DNA of 64,000 nt from Elusimicrobiota bacterium (GTDB lineage Bacteria > Elusimicrobiota > Elusimicrobia > Elusimicrobiales > UBA9959): the NCBI GenBank assembly GCA_026388155.1, contig JAPLKI010000007.1, positions 62,001-126,000 of the forward strand, written 5' to 3'. Positions 1,951 to 42,102 of this stretch are shown one piece after another. The stretch's first letter is position 1, and each line of letters starts with the position of its first letter. The position numbers were made by a program, and so were the translations under genes. The notes beneath the pieces are model-generated. The model was not told where the DNA came from and ran no database searches. It saw only the letters and a program-made list of their open reading frames with translations.

Positions 1951-3378
1951 TTACAGCCCTTCCTCAAAAGAATCCACCGTGTAAACATAAAGCGCGGTGG
2001 ATTTTTCTTTCCAGGCGTTCGCGTCAAGCCCCGCTTTTTCAAGGCAGAGTGAAGAAAGGAATTCGTCCCGGGTTTTGAAATGCTCCCACACCTGCGGCAG
2101 GTAGGTGCCGCTCCTTGAGCCCTTCTGCACATAAACTCCGTGCCTGCGCGGCTCCACCTCCGCGTAAGAAGCAACCGGTTTAAGGGGTGAAAGGACGGAA
2201 ATTTCAATTTTTATTTTTGGCAGTTCATTGCGCGTTACAGGGGAAAACCGGGAATCCTCAAAAGCGGCCGCAACGGCATAAAAGTTTACCGCGTCGGCGA
2301 GCGCCGCGCGCGGTTCCATTGAACCTATGCACCCGCGCAAACGGCCATTTTCGGTAAGCGTCACAAATACCGCCGCCGGCTGGTTAAATTCAAGCCTTTC
2401 GCTCATGGGCAACGGCGTTATCCTGTTATTCTTGAGATAGTCACCTATGCTTTTGCGGGCCTGGGCAAGCAGTTCCAGTTTTATTTCCGCGTTCAGCGCT
2501 ATGGCACCCGGCTTCTTTTTCCCCGTTTTTGAAAACACTCCGGCCGCGTAACCCACCACATTGTTGTCATCGCCCGAGGTCATGCCGGAGTGGGAATACC
2601 CGGCAAGGTCAAAGTCATCCCCGCCTAGTTCAAGCGCGGCGGCGGCCCCGGCTATTATGGCCGCCTGGCCGCAGGCGGCCGTGTCCATTTTGGAGCGGTT
2701 CTTTTCAAGCGCCAGGCGGCAGGCCAGGTCAAAATAGCCGGGGTCCGCGTTCCTGAGCGCGGTTTGAAGAGAGAGCATTATTGACTTATCAGATACGGCG
2801 GCCACATCGCCCGGCGGATAGTGGGACAGATCTGAAGAAACGCAGATAACTGCTTTGCGGCCTTTCAGGCAGGCGGCCAGGGCTTTGCCGGCCTTAACCA
2901 GCGTGTCGGCGTTTTCGGTGTTAAACAGAAGCGGCAATATTTTAAAATCACCGCTATTTAAGACCTGTAAAAAAGGCAGCTGCACCTCTATGGAATGTTC
3001 GGTTTCGTGGGCTTCAGGCAGGTTTTCAAAAAGGGAGGGGGTTTTCATCAGTTCCGCAGCCAGTTTTGTATCCACCGGAACCGGGCCCAATGGAGTTTCA
3101 AAAAGACCGCCGGCCATAAGCGCACCCCGCTCCAAAGCCATGGTATGCCCGGTACCGATAATCACAAAAGTGTCAGCCTTGATTTCCTTAAGCCGTGCAA
3201 AGGCCCTGCCGGCCATTGCGCCTGAATAGACATATCCCGCGTGAGGCGCCAGCACGCCTATAATTTCGCCCTCTGTTTTTGCAGGTCCGCAGTCCAAATA
3301 TTGTGAAACTGTTTTTTTGAGCTTCTCCGGGTCCGCTTCGTAAAAGCTTCCCGCCACCGCCGGTTTGCGTGTTTCCAT
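1951..3378 (-). CDS. Memo (AmmeMemoRadiSam B) / AMMECR1 (AmmeMemoRadiSam A) fusion protein
   Basis: 475 residues with two joined domains. Residues 1-280 match the Memo family: the RKPAVAGSFYEAD opening, APHAGYVYSG with His46, GTGHTM with His78, SSDLSHY with His186 and DTAACG with Cys236, the positions used for metal binding in Memo proteins. Residues about 298-475 match AMMECR1: LRGCIGS at 347-353, then FEDSRFSPV and the GVYVQKGSRSGTYLPQVW block. In many genomes these two domains occur with a radical SAM protein; the fusion is a known arrangement, but no radical SAM gene is visible nearby. The biochemical role of the set is not established. The start is ATG at 3378. Confidence 0.93.
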   Translation of the reverse strand: METRKPAVAGSFYEADPEKLKKTVSQYLDCGPAKTEGEIIGVLAPHAGYVYSGAMAGRAFARLKEIKADTFVIIGTGHTMALERGALMAGGLFETPLGPVPVDTKLAAELMKTPSLFENLPEAHETEHSIEVQLPFLQVLNSGDFKILPLLFNTENADTLVKAGKALAACLKGRKAVICVSSDLSHYPPGDVAAVSDKSIMLSLQTALRNADPGYFDLACRLALEKNRSKMDTAACGQAAIIAGAAAALELGGDDFDLAGYSHSGMTSGDDNNVVGYAAGVFSKTGKKKPGAIALNAEIKLELLAQARKSIGDYLKNNRITPLPMSERLEFNQPAAVFVTLTENGRLRGCIGSMEPRAALADAVNFYAVAAAFEDSRFSPVTRNELPKIKIEISVLSPLKPVASYAEVEPRRHGVYVQKGSRSGTYLPQVWEHFKTRDEFLSSLCLEKAGLDANAWKEKSTALYVYTVDSFEEGL

Positions 3379-3522
3379 TATTTTTTCTCCAGCTTCAGCC
3401 CTCAGCCTAGCCTATTGCCATTAATCTTATAAAATTTTAGAATAGTCTTTCAGCGCCCGCCTAAGAGATTGAAAGGCGCGCCCTGAATGCCACGAACAGC
3501 AAGTCTTCCGGTATTCTTTCAT

Positions 3523-3599
3523 GGTGGTTGTAGCTCAGTGGTTAGAGCGCTCGGCTGTGGCCCGAGAGGTCGCGGGTTCAAATCCCGTCAGCCACCCCA
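3523..3599 (+). tRNA. tRNA-His (GTG anticodon)
   Basis: Full cloverleaf. The 7-bp acceptor stem is formed by 3524-3530 with 3589-3595. The anticodon loop CTGTGGC, with GTG, sits on a CTCGG/CCGAG stem, and the T-arm has the TTCAAAT loop. The histidine-specific extra 5' G (3523) can pair with discriminator C3596, followed by an encoded CCA (3597-3599). The 3' end overlaps the serine recombinase reading frame on the other strand, marking this gene as the probable integration site of the adjoining element. Confidence 0.97.
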
Positions 3600-5216
3600 A
3601 TTTTGACGGTAATCGAACAATCCTTCCAAGCGGGCCACATCGCCCCAAGCGCGCGAAAGCGGCCTTAAAGCTATTTTAACGCGCGAATTCTTGCCATCAT
3701 AGGTAACCTCGCGGATCAATATCTTCAACAGCTCTCTCTGCTCCTCGTAGTTGCATTGCCCGAAAATAAGGAGAAAGTTCTCAATGTTCTGACGCACGAT
3801 CTCCGCGTCAACCGCGCGGCTCTCGTGCTCCAATATCTCTTTGTCCAAAGCGAACAGCTTTGTCCGCACCGTTTCCTTTTTGGCCTGCGCTTCGTCTAGC
3901 CTCTCCATGATAACCGTGTAACGGGGGGAAGTGGTGCCTTCCTGTGCCAAAACACCCACAAGGTTTTTGATGTCTCCGTCAATGTTGCCAAGTTCAGCGC
4001 ACACCCGGCTTTTTTCTTCTTTTTTAACAGGGAGGGCCCGACTGGAATCCTCCAATGTCCCTTTAATGACTTTTTCCACAATGTCTTTGCTCTTACTCAG
4101 CAATTCGAGCCGTTTCATCACGAAACTTTCGAGCGCTTTAGCTGGCACCCGCCTGACCTCACATGCGGTTCTGTCCATCTTGTTGACCGAAGAGCAATGA
4201 TAATAAAAATATCTTTCGCCTTGGCGCGGCCGGCTGGTCGTTGGAGTCATACCAGAATGGCAGAAAGCGCACCTGACCAGACCGCCCAAGAGGTAGCTGT
4301 ATTTTCGCTCTTCTATGTGTCTTTGTGTCACTCCGTGCCCATTAGCCCTGAGGATTCTGTGCGCCTTTTCGAAAACGTCGTCCGGGATGATGGGCAGATG
4401 CTCGCCCTTAATTATGGTATCCCGCTTATAAACTATTTTGCCGGTGAAAATCAGATTATTCAGGAGATAGCTCAGGTTGGCCTTGTTGAATTGCCGCCCA
4501 CCTTTGCGCTTGCCGCCGTCCGTAACCCACGCTTTCATGGTGTAGCCCTTAGCGGCCATCGACTTGGCAGTAAGCATTAAGGACGCCGTCCGGATGTATG
4601 TGTCGAAAATATCCAGGACCTGCTTGGCTTCCTCAGCGTTGACCACCAGAAGCTTATTCTTCCGGTCATAGTCATAGCCCAGAATAGGATGGCCGCCGAT
4701 CCACTTGCCCTTTCTGGCCATTGCCGCCATTTTATCGCGCGTCCGCTCGCTTATCATTTCGCGCTCGAACTGGGAGAAGTCCACCAGGATGGACCGCATA
4801 AGCCGACCGACCGAGGAGGTGGTGTCTATCGGCTGGGTTACAGAAACAAAGGCCACTCCGTTACTTTCGAAGATGTCCAGGATGTGGAGAAAATCTCTCG
4901 TATTGCGACTGAGGCGGTCGTATTTATAGCAGACAACGACCTGGAATTTTCCCTGCCGCGCATCGGAGATGAGCTTTTTCAGGCCCGGGCGGTCCATGTT
5001 GCCGCCCGTAAACCCCGGATCGGTGTATTCCTCGAGGTTTACGCTCCAGCCTTCCGGCTCCCGGCTCTTGATAAAAGCCTGGCAGTATTCCCTCTGCGAG
5101 TCCAGAGAGTTAAAGCTCGTATTCAGGTTTTCGTCAGTGGATTTGCGTGTGTAAATGGCGCACGAATAGCTCTTTGGTTTTTCCTGTTGAACCGTGGCGG
5201 TTTTCCTGCTTACCAT
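3588..5216 (-). CDS. Large serine recombinase (site-specific integrase)
   Basis: 542 residues from ATG 5216. The N-terminal resolvase domain carries YTRKS with catalytic Ser26, SLDSQREYC, and the DRLSRNTRD Arg-rich active-site block. It is followed by the Recombinase domain (RKGKWIGGHPILGYD, DTYIRTASL), a zinc ribbon (CAFCHSG then HCSSVNK...C) and a coiled-coil C-terminus. This is the layout of phage integrases that insert and excise DNA without long homology. I prefer ATG 5216 (AAGGA 7 nt upstream) over ATG 5252. The last codons, including the TGA, lie within the tRNA-His gene, so the present C-terminus was fixed by integration. It is downstream of, and probably co-transcribed with, the small gene at 5227-5403. 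Confidence 0.93.
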   Translation of the reverse strand: MVSRKTATVQQEKPKSYSCAIYTRKSTDENLNTSFNSLDSQREYCQAFIKSREPEGWSVNLEEYTDPGFTGGNMDRPGLKKLISDARQGKFQVVVCYKYDRLSRNTRDFLHILDIFESNGVAFVSVTQPIDTTSSVGRLMRSILVDFSQFEREMISERTRDKMAAMARKGKWIGGHPILGYDYDRKNKLLVVNAEEAKQVLDIFDTYIRTASLMLTAKSMAAKGYTMKAWVTDGGKRKGGRQFNKANLSYLLNNLIFTGKIVYKRDTIIKGEHLPIIPDDVFEKAHRILRANGHGVTQRHIEERKYSYLLGGLVRCAFCHSGMTPTTSRPRQGERYFYYHCSSVNKMDRTACEVRRVPAKALESFVMKRLELLSKSKDIVEKVIKGTLEDSSRALPVKKEEKSRVCAELGNIDGDIKNLVGVLAQEGTTSPRYTVIMERLDEAQAKKETVRTKLFALDKEILEHESRAVDAEIVRQNIENFLLIFGQCNYEEQRELLKILIREVTYDGKNSRVKIALRPLSRAWGDVARLEGLFDYRQNWGG

Positions 5217-5226
5217 ACACCATTCC

Positions 5227-5403
5227 TTACCATCTTTCCCGCCGAGAATCAAGGCCCTTTTTATTCGGAATGCCCGCTTCCTCTTTGGCTTGTTTTTGCT
5301 TCTTCAGAAGCCGGATAGACGCGATGGTCAAAATTTCCACAACGCGCCGAAACCGCTCATCCTCAGTCATTTCTTCTATAAATTGAATCCGGATATCCGT
5401 CAT
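5227..5403 (-). CDS. Small protein upstream of the recombinase, possible recombination partner
   Basis: 58 residues, mostly predicted helix, acidic in the N-terminal half (FIEEMTEDERF) and basic in the second (LLKKQKQAKEE). The ATG at 5403 follows AGGTGG at good spacing; a GTG at 5409 is less likely. Its end overlaps an alternative recombinase start and lies 10 nt upstream of the preferred one, so the two genes form one operon read from the motif at 5421-5451. The size and position are those of a directionality factor or accessory protein, but no family is recognised and that role is inference. Confidence 0.6.
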   Translation of the reverse strand: MTDIRIQFIEEMTEDERFRRVVEILTIASIRLLKKQKQAKEEAGIPNKKGLDSRRERW

Positions 5404-5420
5404 AACCACCTCATATGAAT

Positions 5421-5451
5421 AAAGACGAATGAAGAGGCGGAAATGACGAAA
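5421..5451 (-). promoter_or_regulatory. Two-block early motif, copy A (recombinase operon)
   Basis: Read on the minus strand: TTTCGTCATTT, 9 nt, CATTCGTCTTT. The same two 11-nt blocks recur at 8095-8126 on the plus strand with a 10-nt gap. In both places the second block ends exactly 17 nt before the ATG of the first gene of an operon. TTCGTC occurs in each block 21 nt apart here, close to two helical turns. It could be a promoter for the phage sigma-like factor or a direct-repeat operator. Confidence 0.6.
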
Positions 5452-5454
5452 AAT

Positions 5455-5483
5455 TTGACATAGTGAACAAATGTTTACTATTC
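5455..5483 (+). promoter_or_regulatory. Repressor promoter with LexA/DinR-like box in its spacer
   Basis: TTGACA at 5455-5460 and CTATTC at 5478-5483 are 17 nt apart. The spacer holds an almost perfect palindrome at 5461-5480, TAGTGAACA-AA-TGTTTACTA (8 of 9 bases symmetric). Its core fits the GAAC-RNRY-GTTY box of Firmicute-type LexA (DinR) proteins. Binding there would block RNA polymerase, so the downstream LexA-like repressor is probably autoregulated and responsive to DNA damage. Confidence 0.7.
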
Positions 5484-5522
5484 TTTGATTCGGGGGTTAA
5501 ACCGCAGATACAAGGACGTGAG

Positions 5523-6164
5523 ATGGAACCGACTCAAAAACAACGGCAGGTACTGGACTTCATTTCCAGGTTCATTCAGAAGACCGGCGCTTCACCGACT
5601 TTTAGGGAGATAGGCACTCACTTCGGCTTTGCTTCGCTTAGAGCCGTGGCCGGGCACATTGACGCCTTGGTTAAGAAAGGTCTCCTGAAAAAAGAGAAGC
5701 GAAAATTCCGCAGTCTTATGCCTACCACTGGGACGTTTCGGCCTGACTGGTCCGCTTTAACCCCGGTTCCGGAATGCCTGGCGACCGTTCCGTTGGGGAG
5801 CCCAAAAGCTTTATCCGACGAAATGGATGAGGTTCACTGGATCTCAAAATCTTTGACCGGCGCGGGAGAGTTTTGCATGTTTCCCGTTAAAGGCGATAGC
5901 ATGGTTAAGGCTGGGATTTTCTCTGGCGACTATGTGATAGCCAAACAGCAGACAAGCGCGGATGTCGGCGACATCGTGGTTGCCATTTATCAAGGAGGAG
6001 CTACGTTGAAAAAATATGGCCGCGATTCAAAAGGGAACCATCTACTGATACCGGAAAATGACAGCATGGCGCCGATTATCATCGCACCGGATGACTCTGA
6101 CTTTCGTATCGTAGGGAAAATGACGCTTTTAATTCGGAAAGCCAAGAATCTACGTCGAGCATAA
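5523..6164 (+). CDS. LexA-like self-cleaving repressor
   Basis: 213 residues from ATG 5523 (AAGGA 6 nt upstream). The N-terminus matches the LexA winged helix (QRQVLDFISRFIQKTG, SPTFREIGTHFGF). The C-terminal S24 peptidase domain has Ser126 in GDSM and Lys163 in ATLKKY, the catalytic dyad. The expected cleavage site, 34 residues before the serine as in E. coli LexA, is Leu91-Gly92 rather than Ala-Gly. It is divergent from the recombinase operon with a LexA-type box between them, so it is probably the prophage repressor or a phage-borne SOS regulator. An upstream ATG at 5463 lies inside the operator and is rejected. Confidence 0.9.
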   Translation: MEPTQKQRQVLDFISRFIQKTGASPTFREIGTHFGFASLRAVAGHIDALVKKGLLKKEKRKFRSLMPTTGTFRPDWSALTPVPECLATVPLGSPKALSDEMDEVHWISKSLTGAGEFCMFPVKGDSMVKAGIFSGDYVIAKQQTSADVGDIVVAIYQGGATLKKYGRDSKGNHLLIPENDSMAPIIIAPDDSDFRIVGKMTLLIRKAKNLRRA

Positions 6165-6177
6165 TCATGGGGGAATT

Positions 6178-6354
6178 ATGGATGAAGTCACAACAAAGAG
6201 AAACACCTGGGTCGCCTGTCCAAAATGCGGACACAAGGTAGCCAAGGTCCGGACCTGCGACATGGAGCTGAAATGCAAGCATTGCGGGTGTGAGTTTGAA
6301 GCCGTTATAGGCATATCAACCCCATCCAAGAATGTCCCATCGTCTAAAGAATAG
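6178..6354 (+). CDS. Com-like zinc-ribbon protein
   Basis: 58 residues in a frame directly after the repressor gene (13 nt). It contains two CxxC knuckles, CPKCGHK and KCKHCG, about 19 residues apart, separated by an acidic turn. The pattern resembles the Com family, small zinc-finger proteins that in phage Mu activate translation of mom. A Mom-like gene exists in this prophage at 17268, but not adjacent, so the link is inference; a generic zinc-ribbon role is equally possible. The downstream gene starts 24 nt later, suggesting co-transcription. Confidence 0.6.
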   Translation: MDEVTTKRNTWVACPKCGHKVAKVRTCDMELKCKHCGCEFEAVIGISTPSKNVPSSKE

Positions 6355-6378
6355 AACGATATTAAAAGGATATTTAAC

Positions 6379-7350
6379 ATGACTACAATTGCCGAATGGA
6401 TTGATGCACGGCTTGCCATCGTGATTGGCAGCGACGGACGTGGTGGCTCTGGAATTTGCATAGAAACGGCTGAAGGAGAAGTAGCTGTTCTTACTGCCCG
6501 GCATGTTGTTGTGGATTGCATTCGCACAGGCGCACTGTTGGTGGGCAGAAGATCTCAGCACTCTACAATTCGGCCGACAAGAATCAGAATATCTTCGCAA
6601 AGCGATGTCGCGTATCTCATCGTTGATAAAAATGCTTTTCAGGGGGATTATCTCTCATATCCCGAATGGACAAAGCCATATGCATCAATTACAAATAGCC
6701 AGTCAGTCATGGCTTATGGTGCTTTGGGATCGGAGAAAGAGATTGACATAGAAGCCAGAACTATTTCATCCGTTAAAATTTTATCCTATCTCACTAAAAT
6801 CTCGAAATTCAAAGATGACCTCATAACATGTGACATAATCCCTGACCGGGACACCCCGAAGACTTTCAAGGGCATGAGCGGTGGCCCGCTTTTTGATCTC
6901 AATGGCAATTTTATGGGAGTCTTAATAGAAGAAATACGACGTGGCGGTGAATCTATACCCACAGCGCTTCAGATAGCACCTGTTAATGAGTTAAAAGAAT
7001 TACATGTGCCATTCCAATCTCCATTGAATGATTATTTCGGAGAAAAGATAACAGCCCGAACCTTGGACATCGTCAACCCCGAAAACACCGGTATTACCGA
7101 CAAGCTGGAAGTTAATGGCGAATTCTATTGGTCAGACAAGACGCCTGACGCCCTATATGGGAAAATGGGCAAAATCCTATTTTTACGTTTTCTAACCGGT
7201 AACGCGCAGTATTATCCTATCAATACAGAAGCGTTATTTACTTGGGACACTAACACGAAAGCCGAAAGGATTAAATCATTCGACGAAGCGGTCCGTTTTT
7301 TTCTCTTTAGCATTGGATGGGGAATAGACCCTAAGCAAAAAACAATCTAG
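6379..7350 (+). CDS. Trypsin-like serine protease
   Basis: 323 residues. The first 200 have the chymotrypsin-fold signature: the histidine in VLTARHVV, an aspartate in SDVAYLIVD, and the serine in FKGMSGGPLFD. There is no signal peptide, so it acts in the cytoplasm. The last 120 residues (from about TGITDKLEVNG) match nothing I recognise. It sits between the repressor and the early operon, a usual place for lysogenic accessory (moron) genes, and its base composition is more AT-rich than the genes after it. Cytoplasmic trypsin-like proteases in such positions often act in defence or toxicity; that is inference. Confidence 0.8.
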   Translation: MTTIAEWIDARLAIVIGSDGRGGSGICIETAEGEVAVLTARHVVVDCIRTGALLVGRRSQHSTIRPTRIRISSQSDVAYLIVDKNAFQGDYLSYPEWTKPYASITNSQSVMAYGALGSEKEIDIEARTISSVKILSYLTKISKFKDDLITCDIIPDRDTPKTFKGMSGGPLFDLNGNFMGVLIEEIRRGGESIPTALQIAPVNELKELHVPFQSPLNDYFGEKITARTLDIVNPENTGITDKLEVNGEFYWSDKTPDALYGKMGKILFLRFLTGNAQYYPINTEALFTWDTNTKAERIKSFDEAVRFFLFSIGWGIDPKQKTI

Positions 7351-7367
7351 TTGTAATAACGAAACTT

Positions 7368-7511
7368 CGGACCCGCAGCCACGGCTGCGTGATCCGGCGA
7401 CCTTAAAAGAGCCGCCATAGCAGGCCAGAGCCCCATGAGGGCCAGCGCCTGCTTGAGCCTGGTCGTTAAATTCGGGATGCGTTCCCGTTTTTAGCGATCA
7501 GGCTCTTTTTT
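7368..7511 (+). ncRNA. Structured non-coding stretch, candidate small RNA
   Basis: The 214-nt gap between the protease and sigma-like genes has no convincing reading frame but several hairpins. 7368-7396 forms a stem (CGGA/TCCG with GCAGCC/GGCTGC). Next comes a GCAGGC/GCCTGC pairing, and the stretch ends in a strong terminator hairpin (7455-7511). A discrete transcript ending there is plausible. No known RNA family is recognised and no promoter is obvious, so this remains a candidate. Confidence 0.3.
7455..7511 (+). terminator. Rho-independent terminator with nested hairpin
   Basis: Arms 7455-7470 (GAGCCTGGTCGTTAAA) and 7490-7505 pair along 16 positions with two wobble pairs, and the loop itself folds (CGGGA/TCCCG). 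A run of six T follows at 7506-7511. It separates the accessory/repressor genes from the early operon. Part of its left arm and loop can also pair with 7534-7550, next to the ribosome binding site of the following gene. Confidence 0.75.
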
Positions 7512-7564
7512 ATTGGAGCCGCTGCACTCGCGCGAACGCATCCCTTAACGCGAGGAGGCGGCTT

Positions 7565-8080
7565 ATGTCCGTTAAAGGGAAGGCTCATGCACGTCCAATC
7601 GAGGGATGGGAGGTGGAACTGGCGAAGAACGTGGCGCGTTCGTTCGCCGGGTTTCCGGAGTGGAACGACTTGGAGGCGGAATTATTCAGGAAGTTGTCCG
7701 TCATAAAGAGCGGAAAGCGGGAGGGGATAAAAGACTGGAAGGCGTTTCTCGCCAAATCGCTGTTCAATTCCGCGCACGACTACATCCGCAGATGGAAAGC
7801 CGGCGCGAAGCTGTTCCAGCCGATGGAAATACCCGGTAAAGACGGCGAAATGCTTTCGCTGGAAGAAATCATCGCGCATCCCGGAGATCCAAAGGACTCC
7901 GGCATAGACATAAGGCTTGCGGTCGAAAGCCTGTCGCCGGAACTCCAAGAGCTGTGGGCCCTGCTCATGGAAGAGGGCGGCAATCAGGTCCGCGTGGCCG
8001 AAAGGCTAGGCAAGCCCCGGATGACGGTCAAATACTGGATAGACAAGCTCAAGAGTTCCTTGGTAAAGCGCGGTTTTTAG
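7565..8080 (+). CDS. Sigma-70-like transcription factor of the phage
   Basis: 171 residues. The first half resembles sigma region 2 (LFRKLSVIKSGKREGIKDWKAF..., then SAHDYIRRWKAG). The second half ends in a region-4-like helix-turn-helix (NQVRVAERLGKPRMTVKYWIDKLKSSL) after the LSPELQELWALL helix. The size and layout fit small phage or ECF-type sigma factors. It has a strong GAGGAGG ribosome site 6 nt before the ATG. It precedes the early replication operon and is followed directly by one of the two copies of the two-block motif, so it may direct transcription from those sites. It could instead be a sigma-like regulator without core-binding activity. Confidence 0.65.
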   Translation: MSVKGKAHARPIEGWEVELAKNVARSFAGFPEWNDLEAELFRKLSVIKSGKREGIKDWKAFLAKSLFNSAHDYIRRWKAGAKLFQPMEIPGKDGEMLSLEEIIAHPGDPKDSGIDIRLAVESLSPELQELWALLMEEGGNQVRVAERLGKPRMTVKYWIDKLKSSLVKRGF

Positions 8081-8094
8081 CAGGTAAAAAATAG

Positions 8095-8126
8095 TTTCGT
8101 CATTTCGCATACCCTCATTCGTCTTT
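8095..8126 (+). promoter_or_regulatory. Two-block early motif, copy B (replication operon)
   Basis: TTTCGTCATTT, 10 nt, CATTCGTCTTT, ending 17 nt before the ATG at 8144. It is the partner of the minus-strand copy at 5421-5451, with identical 11-nt blocks and identical distance to the start codon. It lies between the sigma-like gene and the first gene of the recombination/replication operon. Confidence 0.6.
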
Positions 8127-8143: not shown

Positions 8144-8443
8144 ATGGCGAAAACATCATCCGCGATAATTTACAAGTTCACAGTGCCGAAGCGAGGGAGC
8201 GCTGAAATTCTGAAAGCCATCCTTACGCTGGCGGTCAGGGAGACGGAAATCATATACGGTAGGGCCAAGCTTAAGCTGGAGACGGACTACAAGCTGCCCC
8301 CGAACCGCCCGGCCTGCCTTATAGAGGGCGGGACCGAGTGTGGCGAGCACCTGGCGAAGCTGATGTCCGGGTTCCTCATAAAGCAGTTCGGCGAGAACGG
8401 CTTCCGGGTGGATCGGCTCACGAAACAGGGCGGTCGGCCATGA
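8144..8443 (+). CDS. Hypothetical early phage protein
   Basis: 99 residues starting at ATG 8144 with GGAGGG upstream. The N-terminal half alternates hydrophobic and basic residues (IIYKFTVPKRG), followed by a helical segment and a Gly/Cys-containing turn (IEGGTECGEHLAKLMSGF). No family is recognised. It is the first gene of the early operon behind motif copy B, and its stop overlaps the next start (ATGA), so the two are translationally coupled. Confidence 0.7.
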   Translation: MAKTSSAIIYKFTVPKRGSAEILKAILTLAVRETEIIYGRAKLKLETDYKLPPNRPACLIEGGTECGEHLAKLMSGFLIKQFGENGFRVDRLTKQGGRP

Positions 8444-8970
8444 GCTGCGAATCCGAAATCTGCCCGACTTGCGGCCGGAAGCTGAAAGCGGGCGTGAAAT
8501 CGCTCGACCGGTTCATGACACTGTTGTTCATCGCCGCCGTTAAGCTGTCGAAGGACACGACGGTGAAATGGCGGGCCGACCGCGCAGATTCCAAGAGCAC
8601 CGTCAAATCCGCGTTTCTGCGCGACGTCGTATTCTCCAAGGACATCCGGAACGCTGGATTCACCACCCGTTACGCCCGCATGGGAGACCTCAAGTACTGG
8701 CACCTGCTGGAACAAGACCCGGAGCATTGGCACCAAGGCATATACCAAGTCACCGCCCTCGGCAAGAAGTTCCTAAACGGCGAGATAGCGGTCCCCAAAC
8801 AGCTTAAAGTCAGCAACGGCAGGATTCTGGAGGCGTCCCATGAGCGAGTGGACGTCAAAACCGCGCTCGGCAGCAAGTGGAATGAGATCGGCGATTGGAT
8901 AAGCGACTGGCGTAAGGAACACGCGGATGCCAAGGACGAACAGGGTGGCCTGTACCAGCAAAACCAATAA
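8440..8970 (+). CDS. Hypothetical early phage protein with N-terminal zinc knuckle
   Basis: 176 residues from ATG 8440, which overlaps the preceding stop. It starts with CESEICPTCGRK, a probable half zinc finger. The body (residues 20-110) looks like a helical/winged domain with conserved-looking aromatic turns (GDLKYWHLLEQDPEHWHQGIYQVTALGKKFLNGE). This resembles small phage proteins of unknown function seen near recombination genes. A charged C-terminus follows. The role is unknown; co-transcription with the nuclease and recombinase genes suggests DNA metabolism. Confidence 0.7.
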   Translation: MSCESEICPTCGRKLKAGVKSLDRFMTLLFIAAVKLSKDTTVKWRADRADSKSTVKSAFLRDVVFSKDIRNAGFTTRYARMGDLKYWHLLEQDPEHWHQGIYQVTALGKKFLNGEIAVPKQLKVSNGRILEASHERVDVKTALGSKWNEIGDWISDWRKEHADAKDEQGGLYQQNQ

Positions 8971-8986
8971 ATAGGAGTAAAAAAAC

Positions 8987-9862
8987 ATGCAAAACACTGA
9001 TATTCCGTCAGCATCGTATAAAGCGATGAAACTTCCGGAGCCCAAATACACCGTTAGCGCCGACAACCACAAATACAGCATTATTCTCCCAACCGGCGAG
9101 ACTGTCGGCCCGCTCAAATCTGTGACCGGCATTCTAAATGTGCTGGCAAAAGACGCGTTGATCGGCTGGGCAGCCAGAGAATCCGCGAATTTCTTTAAGA
9201 CTGAAATTCTCCGAATGGGCCGCGCGGCGCTCGACCCGGCGATGCTTGAGCAGATCGCAAAGGACGCAGCGGGCGCGCACCGCCGCATGGCCAAGGATGC
9301 CGCAGACTTGGGCTCAAAGTGCCATGACGCCTTTGAGGCCATCATCCTCGGCCGCGAGCCGGAGGGACACCCCAAGGAACTTAATGAGCCGGTCTCCGCT
9401 TTCAAGACTTACCGCCTCCAATCAGACATCGAGGTCGTCGCCACCGAGGTCGCCGTCGCCAGCGCCAAACACCGTTATGGCGGCCGCCTGGACTTCTTGG
9501 GTTACTCAAAGGTTCGAGGCGGATGGGGTATTGGGGATCTAAAAACCAGCAGCGGGTTCTACGGTTCGGAATATGCCTATCAGGTCGCCGGTTACGCTGC
9601 TGCCGTAGAGGAAATGTTCGACATCAAGATCGCATGGGCCGAGATCGTACGCTTCTCAAAAAAACCGCCTTACGAAAGCGAAGCCAGACCTGTCACTGAT
9701 ATGGCCGCCGCAATCTTGGGCTTCATCACCGCCCTCAACATGGTGCGTAGCAATGAAATCAAGCTAATCGGTGCGCCAACGTTCTCAAGCGCCGGAAAGC
9801 CCGAGATGGTGCCCGCACTGCCCAAGCCGAAAAAGAAGCCTGCGTCACCACTTGGGTTTTGA
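8987..9862 (+). CDS. PD-(D/E)XK phage exonuclease-like protein
   Basis: 291 residues. The nuclease core is seen at GGRLDFLG (Asp169) and GIGDLKTSSG (Asp184, Lys186), followed by YAYQVAGYAAA, the pattern of RecB/Cas4-type and phage recombination exonucleases. Upstream helices (KDAADLGSKCHDAFEAIILG) carry the usual His of the family. Next to a Sak4-like ATPase and an SSB-like gene, it probably resects DNA ends for phage recombination. The assignment rests on motifs and context. Confidence 0.8.
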   Translation: MQNTDIPSASYKAMKLPEPKYTVSADNHKYSIILPTGETVGPLKSVTGILNVLAKDALIGWAARESANFFKTEILRMGRAALDPAMLEQIAKDAAGAHRRMAKDAADLGSKCHDAFEAIILGREPEGHPKELNEPVSAFKTYRLQSDIEVVATEVAVASAKHRYGGRLDFLGYSKVRGGWGIGDLKTSSGFYGSEYAYQVAGYAAAVEEMFDIKIAWAEIVRFSKKPPYESEARPVTDMAAAILGFITALNMVRSNEIKLIGAPTFSSAGKPEMVPALPKPKKKPASPLGF

Positions 9863-9910
9863 TGATGCGCAAAATAGCATTCACGAATAAATAAGACAAG
9901 GAGACCACAC

Positions 9911-10786
9911 ATGACCACAGAGAAACAAGAAGCGCAGACACAGACCGTTCCGCCGCCCGCCCATCAACTGGTGAGCGCGCGCAAGAAGAAAAAGACAGGT
10001 ATGCCAAAGTCCGGCATTTGCATCATAGTGGGTTACCCTAAGACCGGGAAAAGCAAGTTCACTGCTTCATTCCCCAACTCGTACGTTCTCAATATGGACT
10101 GCGGTGATGCCGACCATATAGATGGCCGCATCGAGGATATTGAGGATGTCGTTGACGCTCACGGCAATATCGTTAAGACCAAACTGGATAATTTCCGCGA
10201 GGCACTCCTGGTTGCGATTAAGGACCCGATTATTGAGGTAATCGTTATTGACACAATCGACACTCTCGTAGAGAACATCTGCGATGAGATAGCCAACAAA
10301 GCCGGGCTGTCCAAGATCACGGACCGGCTGCCAGGAGTCGATGGCTTCTCTCTCTGGGGCGAGCTCGGAGCGCGCATCGACGGCATGATTAATCTCTTCA
10401 AGAAGAGCGGCAAGCTGTTCATCCTCAATGCCCACCTGCGCGAGCCAAAACTCGACGACAACAACAAGGTCATCACCCCCGCTGGCATTAACGTGCCGGG
10501 CAAGAGCGGCGACAAGCTGGCCTTTGCCGCAGACATGATCGGCTACACATTCAAACGCGAGGTCGGCGGCAAGACAGAATACTGTTTGACGTTTCAGGGG
10601 GGAGTTGCTGGACGCTGGGGTTCACGCGTCGAGGAACTCAGTGACAAGACGATTAAGCTCGACGGCGACAATCCATATAAGTCTTTTGCGGCGCTATTTA
10701 CCGAGAAGGCAGCGATGCCCGAAGCAGGTGAGCCCGCGAAAACGCTCGAAAAGAAACCGGCCACAAAGGCCAAAGGAGGCAAATAA
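9911..10786 (+). CDS. Sak4-like recombination ATPase (RecA-fold)
   Basis: 291 residues with Walker A GYPKTGKSKF (residues 41-50), Walker B in EVIVIDTIDTLVE and the FSLWGELGARIDGMINLFKKSGKLFILNAH segment found in phage Sak4/AAA_24 single-strand annealing proteins. These assist strand annealing together with a cognate SSB, which is the next gene (2-nt gap). The C-terminus is Lys/Ala-rich and probably disordered. AAGGAG precedes the ATG at 9911. Confidence 0.8.
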   Translation: MTTEKQEAQTQTVPPPAHQLVSARKKKKTGMPKSGICIIVGYPKTGKSKFTASFPNSYVLNMDCGDADHIDGRIEDIEDVVDAHGNIVKTKLDNFREALLVAIKDPIIEVIVIDTIDTLVENICDEIANKAGLSKITDRLPGVDGFSLWGELGARIDGMINLFKKSGKLFILNAHLREPKLDDNNKVITPAGINVPGKSGDKLAFAADMIGYTFKREVGGKTEYCLTFQGGVAGRWGSRVEELSDKTIKLDGDNPYKSFAALFTEKAAMPEAGEPAKTLEKKPATKAKGGK

Positions 10787-10788
10787 TC

Positions 10789-11376
10789 ATGGCGAGAATA
10801 AATTACAAAGGCGACGCCGGTGCGGAGAGCCCCAGACAGGGCGGCCAGGCGAAGTTCCAGCCGGCCCCGCGCGGAATCTACACGTTGCAGATTTCCGACT
10901 ATTCGGACGGGGAAGTCACCCAGAGCGGCAAGAACCCGGGCACACCCAGAACCAAGCTGATCTGCGAGATAGCCGACAAGGGCGAGCATTTCGGCAAGCG
11001 CGTGTGGCACAACGTTGTCTGGATTCCGCGCGGCAACGGCGAGAAACCGAATCCGGGGCACGGCATGGCCGTCCACTTCCTTCATGCCGTCGGCATGCAA
11101 TACGACGGCGAGTTTTCGTTCGAGGAGTCAGACCTGCAGGGCCGCCAGTTTCGCGCGCTCCTGGGCGTGACGACCTATGACAAGGTCGCCAACGGGCGAA
11201 CCTACACCAACGAAAAGAACGTCATCGAAGATGTTTACACGGAACGGCATCCTGAGCCCGCATCCACACCGCCCCCTCGCAAGGACGCTTTCAAAGACGC
11301 AAGGGAAATGCTTAAGCACAAACAGCCTACGCCGGAGCCTAGCAAGTCTTCCGACGGCGAAGAAATCCCATTCTGA
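10789..11376 (+). CDS. Phage single-strand DNA-binding-like protein
   Basis: 195 residues. The N-terminal 120 form an OB-like beta domain (RGIYTLQISDYSDGEV, RTKLICEIADKG, KRVWHNVVWIP). The tail is Pro/Ser-rich and ends in DGEEIPF, the acidic-aromatic tip that SSB proteins use to recruit partners. This matches DUF669-type phage SSBs. It directly follows the Sak4-like gene, with which such SSBs act. GGAGG precedes the ATG at 10789. Confidence 0.75.
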   Translation: MARINYKGDAGAESPRQGGQAKFQPAPRGIYTLQISDYSDGEVTQSGKNPGTPRTKLICEIADKGEHFGKRVWHNVVWIPRGNGEKPNPGHGMAVHFLHAVGMQYDGEFSFEESDLQGRQFRALLGVTTYDKVANGRTYTNEKNVIEDVYTERHPEPASTPPPRKDAFKDAREMLKHKQPTPEPSKSSDGEEIPF

Positions 11377-11393
11377 CGCCATAGGGAGGCATT

Positions 11394-12335
11394 ATGTTCA
11401 TCGACGACATTTTGATGTCGGAAGAAATACCCAGGGAGTGGCCCGGAGGCGGGGTCCCCCGGGAACGGATGCTTCGCGCGTTCCGTACCGTTTTCGTCGT
11501 TAAAAACCAGAACGTCTGGGAATACTTTCAGGCGCATATGATGGACGATGAAAATATGAGCGCGAATTGTCCCAATGTCGCGCCCACCATGCCGGGCATG
11601 TGGTTCGAGTGGCTCGCGGAGACCAAAACAATACTCGATCCGGCCAGCGGCGAGTACCGGAACGGCAGGCTGAGAATAGGCGTTCTCTGCTCCGCCGAGG
11701 ACCTGACACTGATCGGACCGGAAGACGCAAAGCCGATTCTAGATAAATACCGGGAATCCGGGGTAAATCCAGGGCGGGAAACGCGGTGGAGCGTGATGGG
11801 CATGGTTTTCACGCAAGTAATGGAGCCGGGGAAATTGCCGCACATCCTGGGCGTTATAGCATGGCGGGTCGGCCACAACGGCGAACTGCTGCCGTCCGGT
11901 GAAAACAACGGCTTCGCCTATATGCTCCGTCCGCCATATATGGGGAAACGCCAGGATGACTTCGGCGGGAGCATGGCCATCGGCGCACGGGCGTGCTGGC
12001 TGGCGCTTTCGCTCATGCACTGCAAGAACGTCCCAATCTCCAAAAGCCCGCCGATACCAGATGCGCTACGACGCGCCCGCGAGCGTAGGGGGAAACCGCC
12101 GCTGTTCCGTCACCACACGCTGGTCATAGACCCGTCCAGGCCAGTGACACGCGGCCAGGCGACCGGAAATGTGGGAATCGGCGACACCGCGCTTCACATC
12201 TGTCGGGGCCATTTCAAGGACTACGGTGAACGCGGGTTATTCGGTAAGTATACCGGGACATATTGGTGGCCCATGCACGCGCGCGGCTTGGCCGCGCACG
12301 GGACGGTGGACAAGGATTACGAGGTGCGAACATGA
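11394..12335 (+). CDS. Conserved phage protein of unknown function (replication operon)
   Basis: 313 residues, beginning at ATG 11394 behind AGGGAGG. It is a mixed alpha/beta protein. The most motif-like part is the C-terminus, with HICRGHFKDYGERGLFGKYTGTYWWPMHARG, rich in His, Cys and aromatic residues and possibly a metal or nucleic acid site. Its stop overlaps the start of the primase-helicase (ATGA), so the two are coupled. Function unknown; a replication accessory role is inferred from position only. Confidence 0.7.
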   Translation: MFIDDILMSEEIPREWPGGGVPRERMLRAFRTVFVVKNQNVWEYFQAHMMDDENMSANCPNVAPTMPGMWFEWLAETKTILDPASGEYRNGRLRIGVLCSAEDLTLIGPEDAKPILDKYRESGVNPGRETRWSVMGMVFTQVMEPGKLPHILGVIAWRVGHNGELLPSGENNGFAYMLRPPYMGKRQDDFGGSMAIGARACWLALSLMHCKNVPISKSPPIPDALRRARERRGKPPLFRHHTLVIDPSRPVTRGQATGNVGIGDTALHICRGHFKDYGERGLFGKYTGTYWWPMHARGLAAHGTVDKDYEVRT

Positions 12336-14389
12336 GCAAGCTTAAATGGGCCCTCAGCCTCGCTGAGCAGGGCTGGCCTGTCTTTCCGCTGGAGCCCAAC
12401 GGCAAGAAACCGATTACACGCAACGGATTCAAGGATGCCACCACCTCGGCTGAGGCCATACAGCAATGGTGGGAGCGCAATCCGGACGCGAATATCGGCC
12501 TGGCAACGGGCGTGGTGTCCGGCATCGCCGCCGTAGACATCGACGTCAAAAAGGGCGCGAAAGGCCGCGAGTCTGCCGCCGGGCTGAATGGCGGCCTGCC
12601 GCCAACGCTCAAAGTCCTGACGCCCAGCGGCGGCTGGCATCTCTACTACGTCTGTCCCGAGGGCGGGCTGCGCAGCAGGAACGGCCTGCTGCCGGGCGTG
12701 GATCTGAAAGCGGACGGCGGATACGTGGTCGCGCCCGGGTCAACGATAGACGGGAAGGCATACGAGTGGAACAACGCGGAAGAGCATCTATCGGCCATGT
12801 CGGAGGAGATTCTCGCCCTCACGCGCAAACCAGTCCAGCCGCCGAGCCTGACCGGCGCGCTGCGGGACGGCACACGGAACTCCACACTTGCCAGTATTGC
12901 GGGCACGATGCGCAGGCGCGGCATGTCTGCCGGCGAGATAAAAGCGGCGCTTGCGGCCATAAATATGCAACGCTGCGACCCGCCGCTGCCGGACAAAGAG
13001 GTAAACGACATCGCCGCGAGCATAAGCCGCTATCCTCCGGCCGCGCGGGATGATGAAGACGAACCGGTTCCGCCCGGCTTCACTGACGATGCTCTGGCGC
13101 TCAAATTCACTTCCAAATACGCCGACGACTGGCGTTACGTCGCCCCGTGGGGACACTGGCTGCACTGGGACGGCGCGCGCTGGCTCAGGGAGACGACGCT
13201 CAAGGCGTTTGACCTCTCAAGGCGAGTCTGCCGCGAAGCGTCAGCCAGCTGCGAGAAGGCAAATATCGCGGCCAAGGTGGCAAGCGCGAGCACGGTGGCC
13301 GCCGTTGAGCGGCTCGCCCGGGCCGACAGGAAGCACGCCGCTGGCATGGATATCTGGGACCGCGACCAGTGGCAGCTCAACGCGTTCGGCGCCGGTACGG
13401 ACTTACGCACTGGCGAGCTGAAACCGCACGCGCGGGCGGACTACATGACGAAGATAGCCGCCGCCACGCCGCAAGGCGACGCGCCGACCTGGCTTAGGTT
13501 CCTGGCGGATATCACCGGCGGGGACGAGGAACTCCAGCGATATCTCGCTCGCATGGCGGGATACGCGCTTACCGGCGTCACAACGGAGCACGCGCTCTTC
13601 TTTCTATACGGCACCGGCGCAAACGGAAAATCGGTATTCCTGAACACGCTGTCGGCTGTAATGGGCGATTATGCCGTAAGCGCGCCAATAGACACGTTCC
13701 TGGAAAACAAAAACGAGAAACATCCCACAGATCTGGCCGGGCTGCGGGGGGCAAGGCTCGTCACTTCCATTGAAGTCGAGAAGGGAAAGCGGTGGGCCGA
13801 AAGCAAAATAAAATCGTTAACGGGTGGAGATAAAATCGCGGCCAGATTCATGCGGCAGGATTTCTTCGAGTACAAACCGCAGTTCAAGCTTATCATCGCG
13901 GGCAATAACAAGCCCGCCATCCGCGACGTAGACGAGGCAATGCGGCGCAGGCTGCATCTGGTGCCGTTTACCGTCACTATCCCTCCGGAGAAACGTGACC
14001 AGACGCTGTCAGACCGGCTGCTGGCCGAAGGAGACGGCATACTGCGCTGGATGCTGGACGGCTGCCTTGAATGGCAAAAAACGGGACTTAAACCGCCCAC
14101 CAGCGTGGTGTCGGCCACGGAGGAGTATCTTGAATCCGAGGACGCACTGGGAAGATGGATTGACGACGAATGTGTCCGTGACATCAATGCCGAGGCCGTC
14201 ACAGACGACCTCTTCGCGTCATGGAAGGTGTGGACCGAGAAGTGCGGCGAATATGCGGGGACAAAGCGGCGGTTCTCTGATGATCTTGATAAACGCGGGT
14301 TTATAAGACGGCGTTCGGGTCGTAAGGGCAATCGCGCGTTTCAAGGAATCGGGCTGAAAGGCAAAGAGGTCCAAGGGACGATACTATGA
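12332..14389 (+). CDS. Prim-Pol / D5-type primase-helicase
   Basis: 685 residues. The N-terminal bifunctional primase/polymerase domain (residues 5-165) shows GWPVFPLEPNGKKP, VDIDVKKG with the catalytic DxD, and GGWHLYYV. A PriCT-like helical region follows (GTRNSTLASIAGTMRRRGMS). The C-terminal half has the D5_N region and an SF3 helicase with Walker A GTGANGKSVF, Walker B, KPQFKLIIAGNNKP and RRRLHLVPF. One protein therefore supplies priming and unwinding for phage DNA replication. I chose ATG 12332 because it overlaps the preceding stop; an upstream in-frame start would run deep into that gene. Confidence 0.92.
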   Translation: MSKLKWALSLAEQGWPVFPLEPNGKKPITRNGFKDATTSAEAIQQWWERNPDANIGLATGVVSGIAAVDIDVKKGAKGRESAAGLNGGLPPTLKVLTPSGGWHLYYVCPEGGLRSRNGLLPGVDLKADGGYVVAPGSTIDGKAYEWNNAEEHLSAMSEEILALTRKPVQPPSLTGALRDGTRNSTLASIAGTMRRRGMSAGEIKAALAAINMQRCDPPLPDKEVNDIAASISRYPPAARDDEDEPVPPGFTDDALALKFTSKYADDWRYVAPWGHWLHWDGARWLRETTLKAFDLSRRVCREASASCEKANIAAKVASASTVAAVERLARADRKHAAGMDIWDRDQWQLNAFGAGTDLRTGELKPHARADYMTKIAAATPQGDAPTWLRFLADITGGDEELQRYLARMAGYALTGVTTEHALFFLYGTGANGKSVFLNTLSAVMGDYAVSAPIDTFLENKNEKHPTDLAGLRGARLVTSIEVEKGKRWAESKIKSLTGGDKIAARFMRQDFFEYKPQFKLIIAGNNKPAIRDVDEAMRRRLHLVPFTVTIPPEKRDQTLSDRLLAEGDGILRWMLDGCLEWQKTGLKPPTSVVSATEEYLESEDALGRWIDDECVRDINAEAVTDDLFASWKVWTEKCGEYAGTKRRFSDDLDKRGFIRRRSGRKGNRAFQGIGLKGKEVQGTIL

Positions 14390-14425
14390 AAACGCTTATT
14401 TTTACGGGCTTTTTTAACTTTTGCA

Positions 14426-14518
14426 GACGCAGCAGACGCAGCTTCCGGTTAACCCGTTACGCGCGTACGCGCGCGCACACGCGTGACGGGGATATACAGG
14501 GACTGCGTCTGCTGCGTC
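14426..14518. repeat. Long GC-rich inverted repeat after the primase-helicase gene
   Basis: A perfect 16-nt arm at 14426-14441 (GACGCAGCAGACGCAG) is inverted at 14503-14518. Inside it, 14453-14463 and 14480-14490 pair over 11 positions with one wobble, around a CG-alternating core (GCGCGTACGCGCGCGC). There is no T-run, so it is not an ordinary terminator. Position after the primase gene suggests a replication origin, a regulatory site or an RNA structure. Confidence 0.6.
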
Positions 14519-14533
14519 AGCATGGGAGGAGCG

Positions 14534-14887
14534 ATGAATAACAGAGCGAAGGGAAACTTACACGAAAAAAAGGTCGCGGATTACCTCAAGAGCCAGGGCT
14601 ATCTGGTAGAACGCACATTCGGCAAGCCCGGCTGGCTGCCGGGCCGGGGGATAGTATTCTGCGCGCGGGATCTGTTCGGCGCGTTTGATATTGTCGCCAT
14701 CCGGCAGCCGGGAGAAGTCCGGTTTATCCAGGTAACATCGGGCGCGGTGGCTGTCCGGCGCAATAAGACGTTCGCGGTCTGGCCGCAGGCAGAGGTCTGG
14801 GAACATTTAAGAGCCGGAGTTTACCGGATTCATAAAGCGGACGGCGCGTCCAGCGTTCTCGACGTAAAGCAACCGGAGGGGGCATGA
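14534..14887 (+). CDS. PD-(D/E)XK nuclease, Holliday-junction-resolvase-like
   Basis: 117 residues from ATG 14534 behind GGGAGGAG. It opens with NNRAKGNLHEKKVADYLKSQGY, the N-terminal helix of archaeal Hjc/VRR-NUC-type nucleases with the catalytic Glu. It continues with DLFGAFDIVAIRQPGEVRFIQV, the core Asp and the strand carrying the E/QxK-type position (here RFIQVT). Probably it resolves or trims branched DNA during phage replication or packaging. The final active-site residue is less canonical, so activity is not certain. Confidence 0.7.
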   Translation: MNNRAKGNLHEKKVADYLKSQGYLVERTFGKPGWLPGRGIVFCARDLFGAFDIVAIRQPGEVRFIQVTSGAVAVRRNKTFAVWPQAEVWEHLRAGVYRIHKADGASSVLDVKQPEGA

Positions 14888-15135
14888 ACTGGTTAAACAG
14901 TTTATGGACTTTTGACATGAAAGCGTCCAAAATAGATCAAGGCCGGTATGAGCCGCGAGTATGCGAGCACTGCGGGAAGAGGTTTCGACCCTCTTTCCCG
15001 AATCAGCAACTCCACAGAACCTGCATCCGCCCCTGGCGGCGCAAGTATATCCGCGAGTATCACCGCAAGGTTAGGCGGGAATTGAAACGGGATTATCACG
15101 ATGAAACGCAAGGGTCCGCAAAAACACTCAAATGA
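14884..15135 (+). CDS. Small Cys-rich DNA-binding-like protein
   Basis: 83 residues, overlapping the preceding gene by ATGA with GGAGG upstream. It contains CEHCGKRFRPSFPNQQLHRTCIR, a zinc-finger-like Cys/His set, then a strongly basic segment (WRRKYIREYHRKVRRELKR) suited to nucleic acid contact. An internal ATG at 14917 is possible. Its first codons coincide with one copy of a 23-bp repeat also found at 22014. Lying before the terminase genes, it may be an HNH-like or packaging accessory protein; unproven. Confidence 0.65.
   Translation: MNWLNSLWTFDMKASKIDQGRYEPRVCEHCGKRFRPSFPNQQLHRTCIRPWRRKYIREYHRKVRRELKRDYHDETQGSAKTLK
14887..14909 (+). repeat. 23-bp repeat with dyad, copy 1
   Basis: Identical over 23 bases to 22014-22036. 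The first 16 bases, AACTGGTTAAACAGTT, form a dyad (AACTG/CAGTT). Here it lies across the first codons of the small Cys-rich gene. The second copy overlaps the -35 of a good promoter, so the dyad looks like an operator. Confidence 0.7.
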
Positions 15136-15652
15136 AACCATCCATACCGCGATCACGAAATTCGAGGGCGGCGCGCGGCTCAGCGCCATCGCAAGGGAGC
15201 TTGGAGTTGAAAAGTCCACTGTCAAATACTGGCTCGATAACGCGGCCAGATTTATGCCGGACAAACAAGGCCCCAACCCCGCTGCCGCCAGAATACAAAC
15301 CCGCCTCACCCGCGAAGCGTGGGACATCATCTTCCTGGCGCTCAAAGAAATCAAACGGAAACTGTCCGAGGCCACAATACGCGACCTGGTCTCCGTTATG
15401 GGCGAGCTGTTTGACCGCCAGGCGCAGTTCGGAATGCTCACAGGAAGGAACGCTGTCCCGGAGCGAGTACTTGAGAAGTCGGAAGAACTCCGCATCACTG
15501 TGCGGCAGTTCCTTCACAATAAATCAGCAGGAGAAAAAGCTTCTGCTGAAGGCCTGGGCGTCGAGCCCGTTAAACAACCCGGAGCGCAGGAACCACCTGA
15601 GGCGCAGACAGAGCCCGGAGAGCACAAAAAGGACGGGAATGACGCCGTTTAA
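15101..15652 (+). CDS. Terminase small subunit-like DNA-binding protein
   Basis: 183 residues. The N-terminus has a helix-turn-helix (IHTAITKFEGGARLSAIARELGVEKSTVKYWLDN), followed by a helical oligomerisation-like region and a Pro/Glu-rich, probably disordered tail. It sits directly before the large terminase, overlapping the previous gene by 35 nt. Its layout fits a small terminase that binds the packaging site. Sequence alone does not exclude a transcription regulator. Confidence 0.65.
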   Translation: MKRKGPQKHSNETIHTAITKFEGGARLSAIARELGVEKSTVKYWLDNAARFMPDKQGPNPAAARIQTRLTREAWDIIFLALKEIKRKLSEATIRDLVSVMGELFDRQAQFGMLTGRNAVPERVLEKSEELRITVRQFLHNKSAGEKASAEGLGVEPVKQPGAQEPPEAQTEPGEHKKDGNDAV

Positions 15653-15663
15653 CGCCGTATTCA

Positions 15664-15690
15664 CTAAACATAATGCGCGATTATGTTTAG
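15664..15690. repeat. Perfect hairpin between terminase genes
   Basis: CTAAACATAAT (15664-15674) and ATTATGTTTAG (15680-15690) are perfect 11-bp arms around GCGCG. It begins 11 nt after the small terminase stop. The following CTTTTC is too short for a convincing terminator. It may be a regulatory or packaging-site element. Confidence 0.55.
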
Positions 15691-15852
15691 GCTTTTCTCG
15701 TCGGAGAAGCACTCCGCGACAAGGCGCGGAAAATTTGCGTAAAAATCCAGACCGGAACCGCGTATGCTCCCCAAAAGAATTTATTTCGCACGTTCAAAAG
15801 GGACATACCCATATATTTTTTGTACGAAACCGCTCAATGGAAAATCCTTCGT

Positions 15853-15887
15853 CCATTCTTCGCACAAACGGCCATTTTCTTCGCACA
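15853..15887 (+). repeat. Short direct repeat just before the large terminase gene
   Basis: CCATTCTTCGCACA at 15853-15866 and CCATTTTCTTCGCACA at 15872-15887 differ only by two extra T. They lie in the 249-nt gap between the terminase genes, which otherwise holds the 15664-15690 hairpin and no convincing short gene. They are possible subunit-binding repeats of a cos or pac site. Confidence 0.4.
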
Positions 15888-15901
15888 GGAAAAATGGGGC
15901 T

Positions 15902-39245: not shown

Positions 39246-39831
39246 AACACTATGCGGAGCCGTTAAAGCCGCCGCACTATTCATCGTCCGACGGCCCAAG
39301 GACGCGGCTTTCGTCATTTGCGGGTTCTTGTTCGTCTTCATACTCATGGAACTTCGGCATGAGCAATCACACGTGCGGGAGCTGACAGCCAAAACAGAGG
39401 GACTGCCGCCAGGCACCAAGGAAGAGGTGGTCGTATACCGCGACCGCATAATAGAGAAATGGCGCACCGGCCCGGCACAGGTTGAATACCGGGAGCGGTA
39501 TCTTCCGCCAGAAGGACACGTGGAGATCGTGACGAAGGAAAACGCACCGAATAAGCCGCCGGAAGTCGTGGTCAAGGACTGGGGATTTGCGATGCGACTG
39601 GGCGGGGGGGTGGTTTACTCGGACCGGATTTTGCCGATGCTTGATCTGAAGTGGTTCTACTGGAAGCGGTATAGCCTGACAGTTGGGATAACACCGAAAT
39701 TCGGTGGGCTATGTCTCTCAAGGCACATAGATGATTTTACACCATTCTGCAATTTGGAGATCTTCAGTATTGTAGGAATTACCTGGCAGGGCAACAGAGA
39801 CGTGGGAATGGGTGTTCGTATAAACTTCTAA
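39229..39831 (+). CDS. Spanin-like envelope protein (candidate)
   Basis: 200 residues from ATG 39229, overlapping the holin gene by 17 nt, GGGAGGGG upstream. A single membrane segment (VICGFLFVFILMEL, about 28-42) is followed by a charged periplasmic helix/linker, then about 70 residues of alternating beta strands ending in GMGVRINF, reminiscent of an outer-membrane-type C-terminus. An inner-membrane anchor plus an envelope-spanning part, next to holin and amidase, suggests a spanin role in breaking the outer membrane. This is inference from layout. Confidence 0.5.
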   Translation: MAQAIKTLCGAVKAAALFIVRRPKDAAFVICGFLFVFILMELRHEQSHVRELTAKTEGLPPGTKEEVVVYRDRIIEKWRTGPAQVEYRERYLPPEGHVEIVTKENAPNKPPEVVVKDWGFAMRLGGGVVYSDRILPMLDLKWFYWKRYSLTVGITPKFGGLCLSRHIDDFTPFCNLEIFSIVGITWQGNRDVGMGVRINF

Positions 39832-42101: not shown

Positions 42102-42102
42102 T

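Follow-up and report, generated by a model that had tools for sequence, protein, structure and literature searches.

Gene content and regulatory features of the prophage

The DNA analysed here, a stretch of 64,000 nucleotides from an Elusimicrobiota bacterium that we call the window, carries a prophage adjoining a tRNA-His gene (3524-3599); the end of this gene, looked for as an attachment site, is not repeated elsewhere in the window. The features on which the argument rests are the following.

3588..5252, minus strand: large serine recombinase (integrase)
5227..5403, minus strand: first gene of the integrase operon, whose small product contains the shared EMTxxER stretch
5421..5451, minus strand: two-block element, integrase-operon copy, a proposed sigma-dependent promoter
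5455..5484, plus strand: sigma-70-type promoter of the repressor gene, TTGACA-18-TATTCT
5461..5480, no strand assigned: palindrome TAGTGAACAAATGTTTACTA in the spacer of the repressor promoter, a likely operator
5523..6164, plus strand: LexA-like repressor (LexA DNA-binding domain and S24 peptidase)
6178..6354, plus strand: small zinc-ribbon protein, weakly matching a phage translational-regulator family and a candidate regulator
7369..7564, plus strand: structured leader RNA ahead of the sigma coding sequence, conserved in most family members
7455..7511, plus strand: predicted terminator hairpin and U tract within the leader
7515..7563, plus strand: predicted hairpin that pairs the sigma gene's Shine-Dalgarno region
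7565..8080, plus strand: predicted ECF-type sigma factor gene, 171 aa
8095..8126, plus strand: two-block element, replication-operon copy, directly 3' of the sigma gene
8144..14389, plus strand: replication/recombination operon, with genes for a 99-aa protein, a zinc-ribbon protein, an exonuclease-like protein, a Sak4-like ATPase and a primase/helicase-like protein (the last assigned from sequence alone)
39309..39340, plus strand: third, weaker two-block copy within a late (lysis/spanin-like) gene, 5' of the cargo region

The ATG at 5403 does begin the recombinase operon, as a preliminary description of this DNA had proposed, with the correction that the first gene there is a 58-codon ORF and the recombinase gene is second. 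An EMTPxER-like stretch in this small first protein is common to the window and to the related loci L017, L019, L022 and L020. The small zinc-ribbon gene, which sits between the repressor gene and the sigma leader, is also conserved.

Several regions of the prophage carry cargo. One variable slot, flanked by the zinc-ribbon gene and the sigma leader (6379-7350 in the window; 2931-4130 in the related phage L006), holds a trypsin-like protease gene with a weak match to LmuA in the window and an unrelated ORF in L006; L005 lacks an ORF of this kind. The window has BREX genes (BrxA, BrxB; 43712-45098 and beyond) downstream of the lysis gene, and L006 has apparent type III restriction-modification genes at the same place. 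Window positions 40058-43266 contain a ParB-like gene resembling PD-Lambda-5_A / PDC-M38A together with a DNA methylase gene, both candidate defence genes.

A predicted ECF-type sigma factor

The gene beside the second copy of the two-block element had been described as sigma-70-like, and matches at the level of profiles, profile-profile comparison and structure models place it in the ECF type. Matches to single domains are weak (Sigma70_r4, E 0.005, under the Pfam cut-off), and TIGR02937 (sigma70-ECF) aligns with residues 18-168 at E 1.5e-8 and 34.4 bits, thus below the curated cut-off of 42.9, which is a library threshold and no biological property. A profile built from ten relatives (A6) retrieves ECF sigma factors of hosts with E values of about 1e-9 to 1e-10, profile-profile comparison with host ECF sigma factors gives a probability of 99.3% (E 2.5e-20, residues 21-170), and the homologue L023 clears the Pfam cut-off for Sigma70_r2 (29.7 versus 24). 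ECF sigma factors have only the sigma2 and sigma4 regions, in about 160-200 aa, as does this 171-aa protein. A structure model of middling confidence, built from 23 sequences (pLDDT 72, pTM 0.44), has two helical domains with helices ordered like those of sigma2 and sigma4, and the best Foldseek matches to this model are SigH, SigE, AlgU, SigK and other ECF sigma factors (E 0.005 at best). An earlier model built on four sequences was too poor to use (pLDDT 55), and a specific kinship to gp36 of phage phiEco32 was rejected (hhalign probability 0.7%). The product of this gene is, on these comparisons, a predicted phage ECF-type sigma factor.

Geometry and rarity of the two-block element

The copies upstream of the integrase and replication operons lie where they had first been reported, with identical blocks 9 or 10 nt apart and, at both copies, 17 nt between the end of the last block and the ATG. 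The exact pair had no match in 100 shuffles, and no copy besides these two across the whole 3.36 Mb genome; single blocks are not rare when mismatches are allowed, and it is the pair that is rare. The statement that only two copies exist holds for exact copies and fails for weaker ones, since a third, kept in the relative L006, was detected with a matrix built from six class-A copies. This third copy scores 29.7 bits in the window and its counterpart in the homologous late gene of L006 scores 36.9 bits, against background maxima of 24.7 bits in 1.19 Mb of other real sequence and 18.4 bits in 3.84 Mb of shuffled sequence. Because a conserved membrane stretch (FVI..LFVF) is encoded by part of the third copy, the conservation of this copy may owe something to constraint on the protein.

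Block order is fixed: in all six copies, from three phages, the first block is CGTCATTT and the second is CGTCTTTA, with 13-14 nt between them, so that the blocks are 21-22 nt apart from start to start and the spacing differs by one base. This geometry suits an ECF promoter, and no sigma-70-type promoter directed into the integrase or replication operon was found near the element. CGTC, taken earlier as a sign of an ECF-type -10 element, is not diagnostic; CTCT or CGTTTATTTA replaces it in other lineages.

The blocks could instead be direct-repeat half-sites of an operator over ordinary promoters, bound by the LexA-like protein or another phage regulator, a reading favoured by the presence of TTCGTC in both window blocks and by a start-to-start distance of about two helical turns. 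We consider this very unlikely. The half-sites proposed in the preliminary description are not interchangeable, the blocks never being swapped in the six copies, and the one-base variation in spacing also argues against such an operator, as does the dissimilarity of the two blocks in the relatives L020, L044 and L045. Moreover, the LexA-like protein has a likely palindromic operator of its own: TAGTGAACAAATGTTTACTA occurs once in the genome even with three mismatches allowed, and the repressor gene of L017 carries it nearly unchanged (TAGTAAACATTTGTTTACTA), although the two-block motif of L017 belongs to another class. Neither feature of a LexA-type direct-repeat operator, interchangeable half-sites or the same element at the repressor promoter, was found, and we rejected the two-block element as the operator of this protein. 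Since the palindrome is separate and stable while the two-block motif changes, it is most likely that the LexA-like repressor reads the palindrome and that something else reads the blocks.

Paired copies change together in related phages

The layout and both two-block copies recur in two IMG/VR phages (L005 and L006) and in a metagenome-assembled contig catalogued under Omnitrophota (L009). Absence of the motif from relatives with the sigma-like gene had been named in advance as the refuting outcome; these close relatives keep both copies, and divergent relatives have an altered element at both sites, altered alike at both. The sigma family extends through genomes of the same phylum at 27-50% identity, and in seven divergent lineages a two-block element lies 3' of the sigma gene. 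Its sequence there is TTTCACCGATTTT/CATTCGTCGTTA in L017, TTTCGCCATTTT/GTGCGTCGGT in L019, ATTCGTCACTTTT/ATGTCTCTGTA in both L021 and L022, TTTTGACGTTTT/GGGACTCTCTAT in L020, GTTGTGCACTTT/AAAGACTCTATTTA in L044 and GCGTCAACTTCCGG/ATCCCGTTTGTTTAGG in L045.

A second copy lies 5' of an integrase operon in six of the seven lineages, the exception being L044, where it is not in front of an integrase. Its position is kept in L005, L006, L009, L017, L018/L019, L021/L022, L020 and L045. The operon behind it encodes a serine recombinase in the window, L017, L018/L019, L022 and L045, and a tyrosine integrase in L020; the matching second copy of L021 is divergent, like that of its close relative L022. 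When the copies were compared across seven lineages, one pair from each, the true pairing was the unique maximum of 5,040 permutations (trace, or total similarity, 172). Because paired copies match within each phage, one lineage-specific factor probably reads both, and this is the main evidence for the proposal developed below.

The factor might be a host sigma factor or activator, with the phage sigma-like protein working elsewhere. Adjacency by itself is no proof of a sigma-element pair, and the sigma gene adjoins the element in every case by construction, since the loci were found that way. We nonetheless regard a host factor as highly improbable: the motif is missing from the remainder of the host genome, the element varies with phage lineage, and a loose related pattern gave only 19 matches in 235 genomes of the class, at or below background and fewer than the reversed control.

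The arrangement has a limited range. The more distant family members L049, L050 and L052 leave no space for an element, the sigma gene being directly followed by the next gene, and the stretches examined of L023, L046-L048, L051, L054, L056 and L057 yielded no second copy. No relatives were found among annotated phage records, and viral contigs searched with the L017-L022 subgroup gave no match. Distant IMG/VR phages also have what look like additional copies (before head genes in L059-L062, and in L063/L072); these include terminator-like hairpins and were set aside. In two of these phages (L059, 2445, minus strand; L062, 5176, minus strand), a 38-nt element with a terminator-like hairpin follows an ECF-like sigma gene and is repeated divergently before head genes.

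Leader RNA and Shine-Dalgarno hairpins

The 200 nt 5' of the sigma gene have a predicted fold of -104 kcal/mol (z -6.8), and the leader is 92% identical among close relatives. In most lineages it has the core CGACyCTAACAGAGCC ... GGCCAGAGCC ... GAGCCTGGTCG-hairpin-CGACCAGGCTC-T6; L057 lacks most of this core, and L021/L022 retain little besides the terminator. Nine of the 18 predicted pairs in the consensus have two-sided, pair-keeping changes, some of these pairs being alternative to the outer terminator stem. A search of Rfam with the leader matched no family. The leader is a candidate conditional terminator that would decide sigma production, and the small zinc-ribbon protein is a candidate partner for it.

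Hairpins are also predicted at the starts of the genes behind the element. Shine-Dalgarno bases are paired in 78% of 26 sites, not all of them phylogenetically independent, as compared with 41% of 169 control starts (p about 1e-6), and the folding is stronger than in the controls (z -1.40 versus -0.28). These numbers could favour control at the RNA level, with block 2 forming the loop of a hairpin in which the Shine-Dalgarno sequence is concealed, to be opened or closed in both operons by an RNA-binding protein. We judge this to be very unlikely. Besides the relatedness of the sites, the register of the hairpin varies, and it is absent after the sigma gene in L044 and L045 and at one site in L017. 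RNA-level control would also leave block 1 without a role and would not account for tandem copies in L020 that have no gene of their own. Furthermore, the same hairpin is compatible with a promoter, because its 5' arm, usually in or just 5' of block 2, lies upstream of the expected transcription start; RNA started at the promoter would miss the 5' arm and be open, and read-through RNA would be closed.

A putative promoter array in an integrative element

Locus L020 (genome G195), in a related host, includes a tandem array of about 300 bp (14498-14800) ahead of genes for an excisionase-like protein and a second tyrosine integrase. Three elements in the array are strong, scoring 28.5-31.9 bits against a shuffle maximum of 20.1, and belong to the window/L017 type; two others are weak, at 15-16 bits close to the shuffle maximum, and resemble the L020 and L044 types. 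Our search of G195 found only one sigma factor of the family, of another class: the one with the L020-type element. The array belongs to an integrative element of about 4.5 kb, at 12.2-16.8 kb of the locus (given also as 12243-17024), bounded by two copies of a ferredoxin-like gene end that lie 4,550 bp apart, and carrying genes for a PIN-domain protein, a MazE-type antitoxin, an excisionase and an integrase. No structural genes were recognisable within it. It thus looks like a satellite, being small and integrative, with an integrase, an excisionase and a duplicated target end. We tentatively suggest, from this single case, that it may be a putative satellite that senses phages through promoters, excising in response to the sigma factor of any one of several phages; it could alternatively be a degraded prophage. 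If the array is read correctly, mobile elements can sense invading phages by carrying their promoters.

Proposed mechanism

We think it very probable that a phage ECF sigma factor reads the two-block elements as promoters, firing excision and replication together. The preliminary description had suggested a phage-specific promoter class that joins excision to replication, and conservation of the element, the matched change of paired copies and the separate, likely repressor operator all support that suggestion. The sigma factor would join the host core polymerase and recognise the element, with block 1 (TTCGTCATTT) serving as the -35 element and block 2 as the -10 element, and transcription would start just 3' of block 2, about 10-15 nt ahead of the ATG. 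Once the sigma factor was made, the integrase operon, for excision, and the replication operon would be transcribed at once; the weaker third copy may contribute late or cargo transcription. In the lysogen the operons would be silent, since the sigma factor would be absent, and the leader RNA, with its terminator and Shine-Dalgarno hairpin, would be the likely switch for sigma production. The sigma factor as reader, the start sites, the silence of the lysogen and the leader as switch are the four parts of this proposal that we infer; the motif with its conservation, the homology to ECF sigma factors and the matched change of paired copies in each phage are observed.

If the proposal is true, temperate phages fire excision and replication jointly through an ECF sigma factor of their own. 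The matched sigma-promoter pairs would form a natural series in which specificity is readable by comparison, and such pairs are relevant to the unsettled question of joint change in sigma factors and their promoters.

Comparison with known systems

The leader of phage T4 gene e (lysozyme) contains a hairpin that masks the start site of read-through transcripts, and a phage-specific promoter starts inside this hairpin. The logic of the Shine-Dalgarno hairpins described here is the same, although here it is predicted only.

ECF sigma factors are known in the lytic phages phiEco32 and 7-11, where, as proposed here, a phage ECF-type sigma factor steers the host polymerase to promoters specific to the phage, which precede defined sets of genes (PMC4331800, PMC7881722). 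Those phages are virulent, with middle and late programmes and an anti-sigma factor that ends early transcription, and their published promoter motif, TAATGTATA, is unlike the two-block element (PMC4331800, PMC7881722). The phage described here, by contrast, is temperate, with putatively sigma-dependent integrase and replication operons and a LexA-like repressor; what is new is a temperate variant of the known phage ECF sigma factors. Bacillus phages likewise switch gene sets with sigma factors (gp28/gp34 of SPO1, and sporulation-like ones), but the source does not present these as ECF-type, and its passages on them describe no control of an integrase by the phage's own sigma factor (PMC9429907). 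The excision gene sprB of SPbeta is controlled by alternative sigma factors, as we propose for the integrase operon, but these are host sigma factors (PMC8270828). SPbeta nonA is regulated by sigma factors of another phage, SP10, and is a precedent for an element that heeds a foreign phage sigma factor, as suggested for L020, although SPbeta has no multi-phage promoter array (PMC8270828). Similarly, SaPI islands with the promiscuous repressor Stl are satellites that sense several unrelated phages; Stl does so through protein-protein contact with the repressor, whereas the L020 element would do so through putative promoters (PMC6695447).
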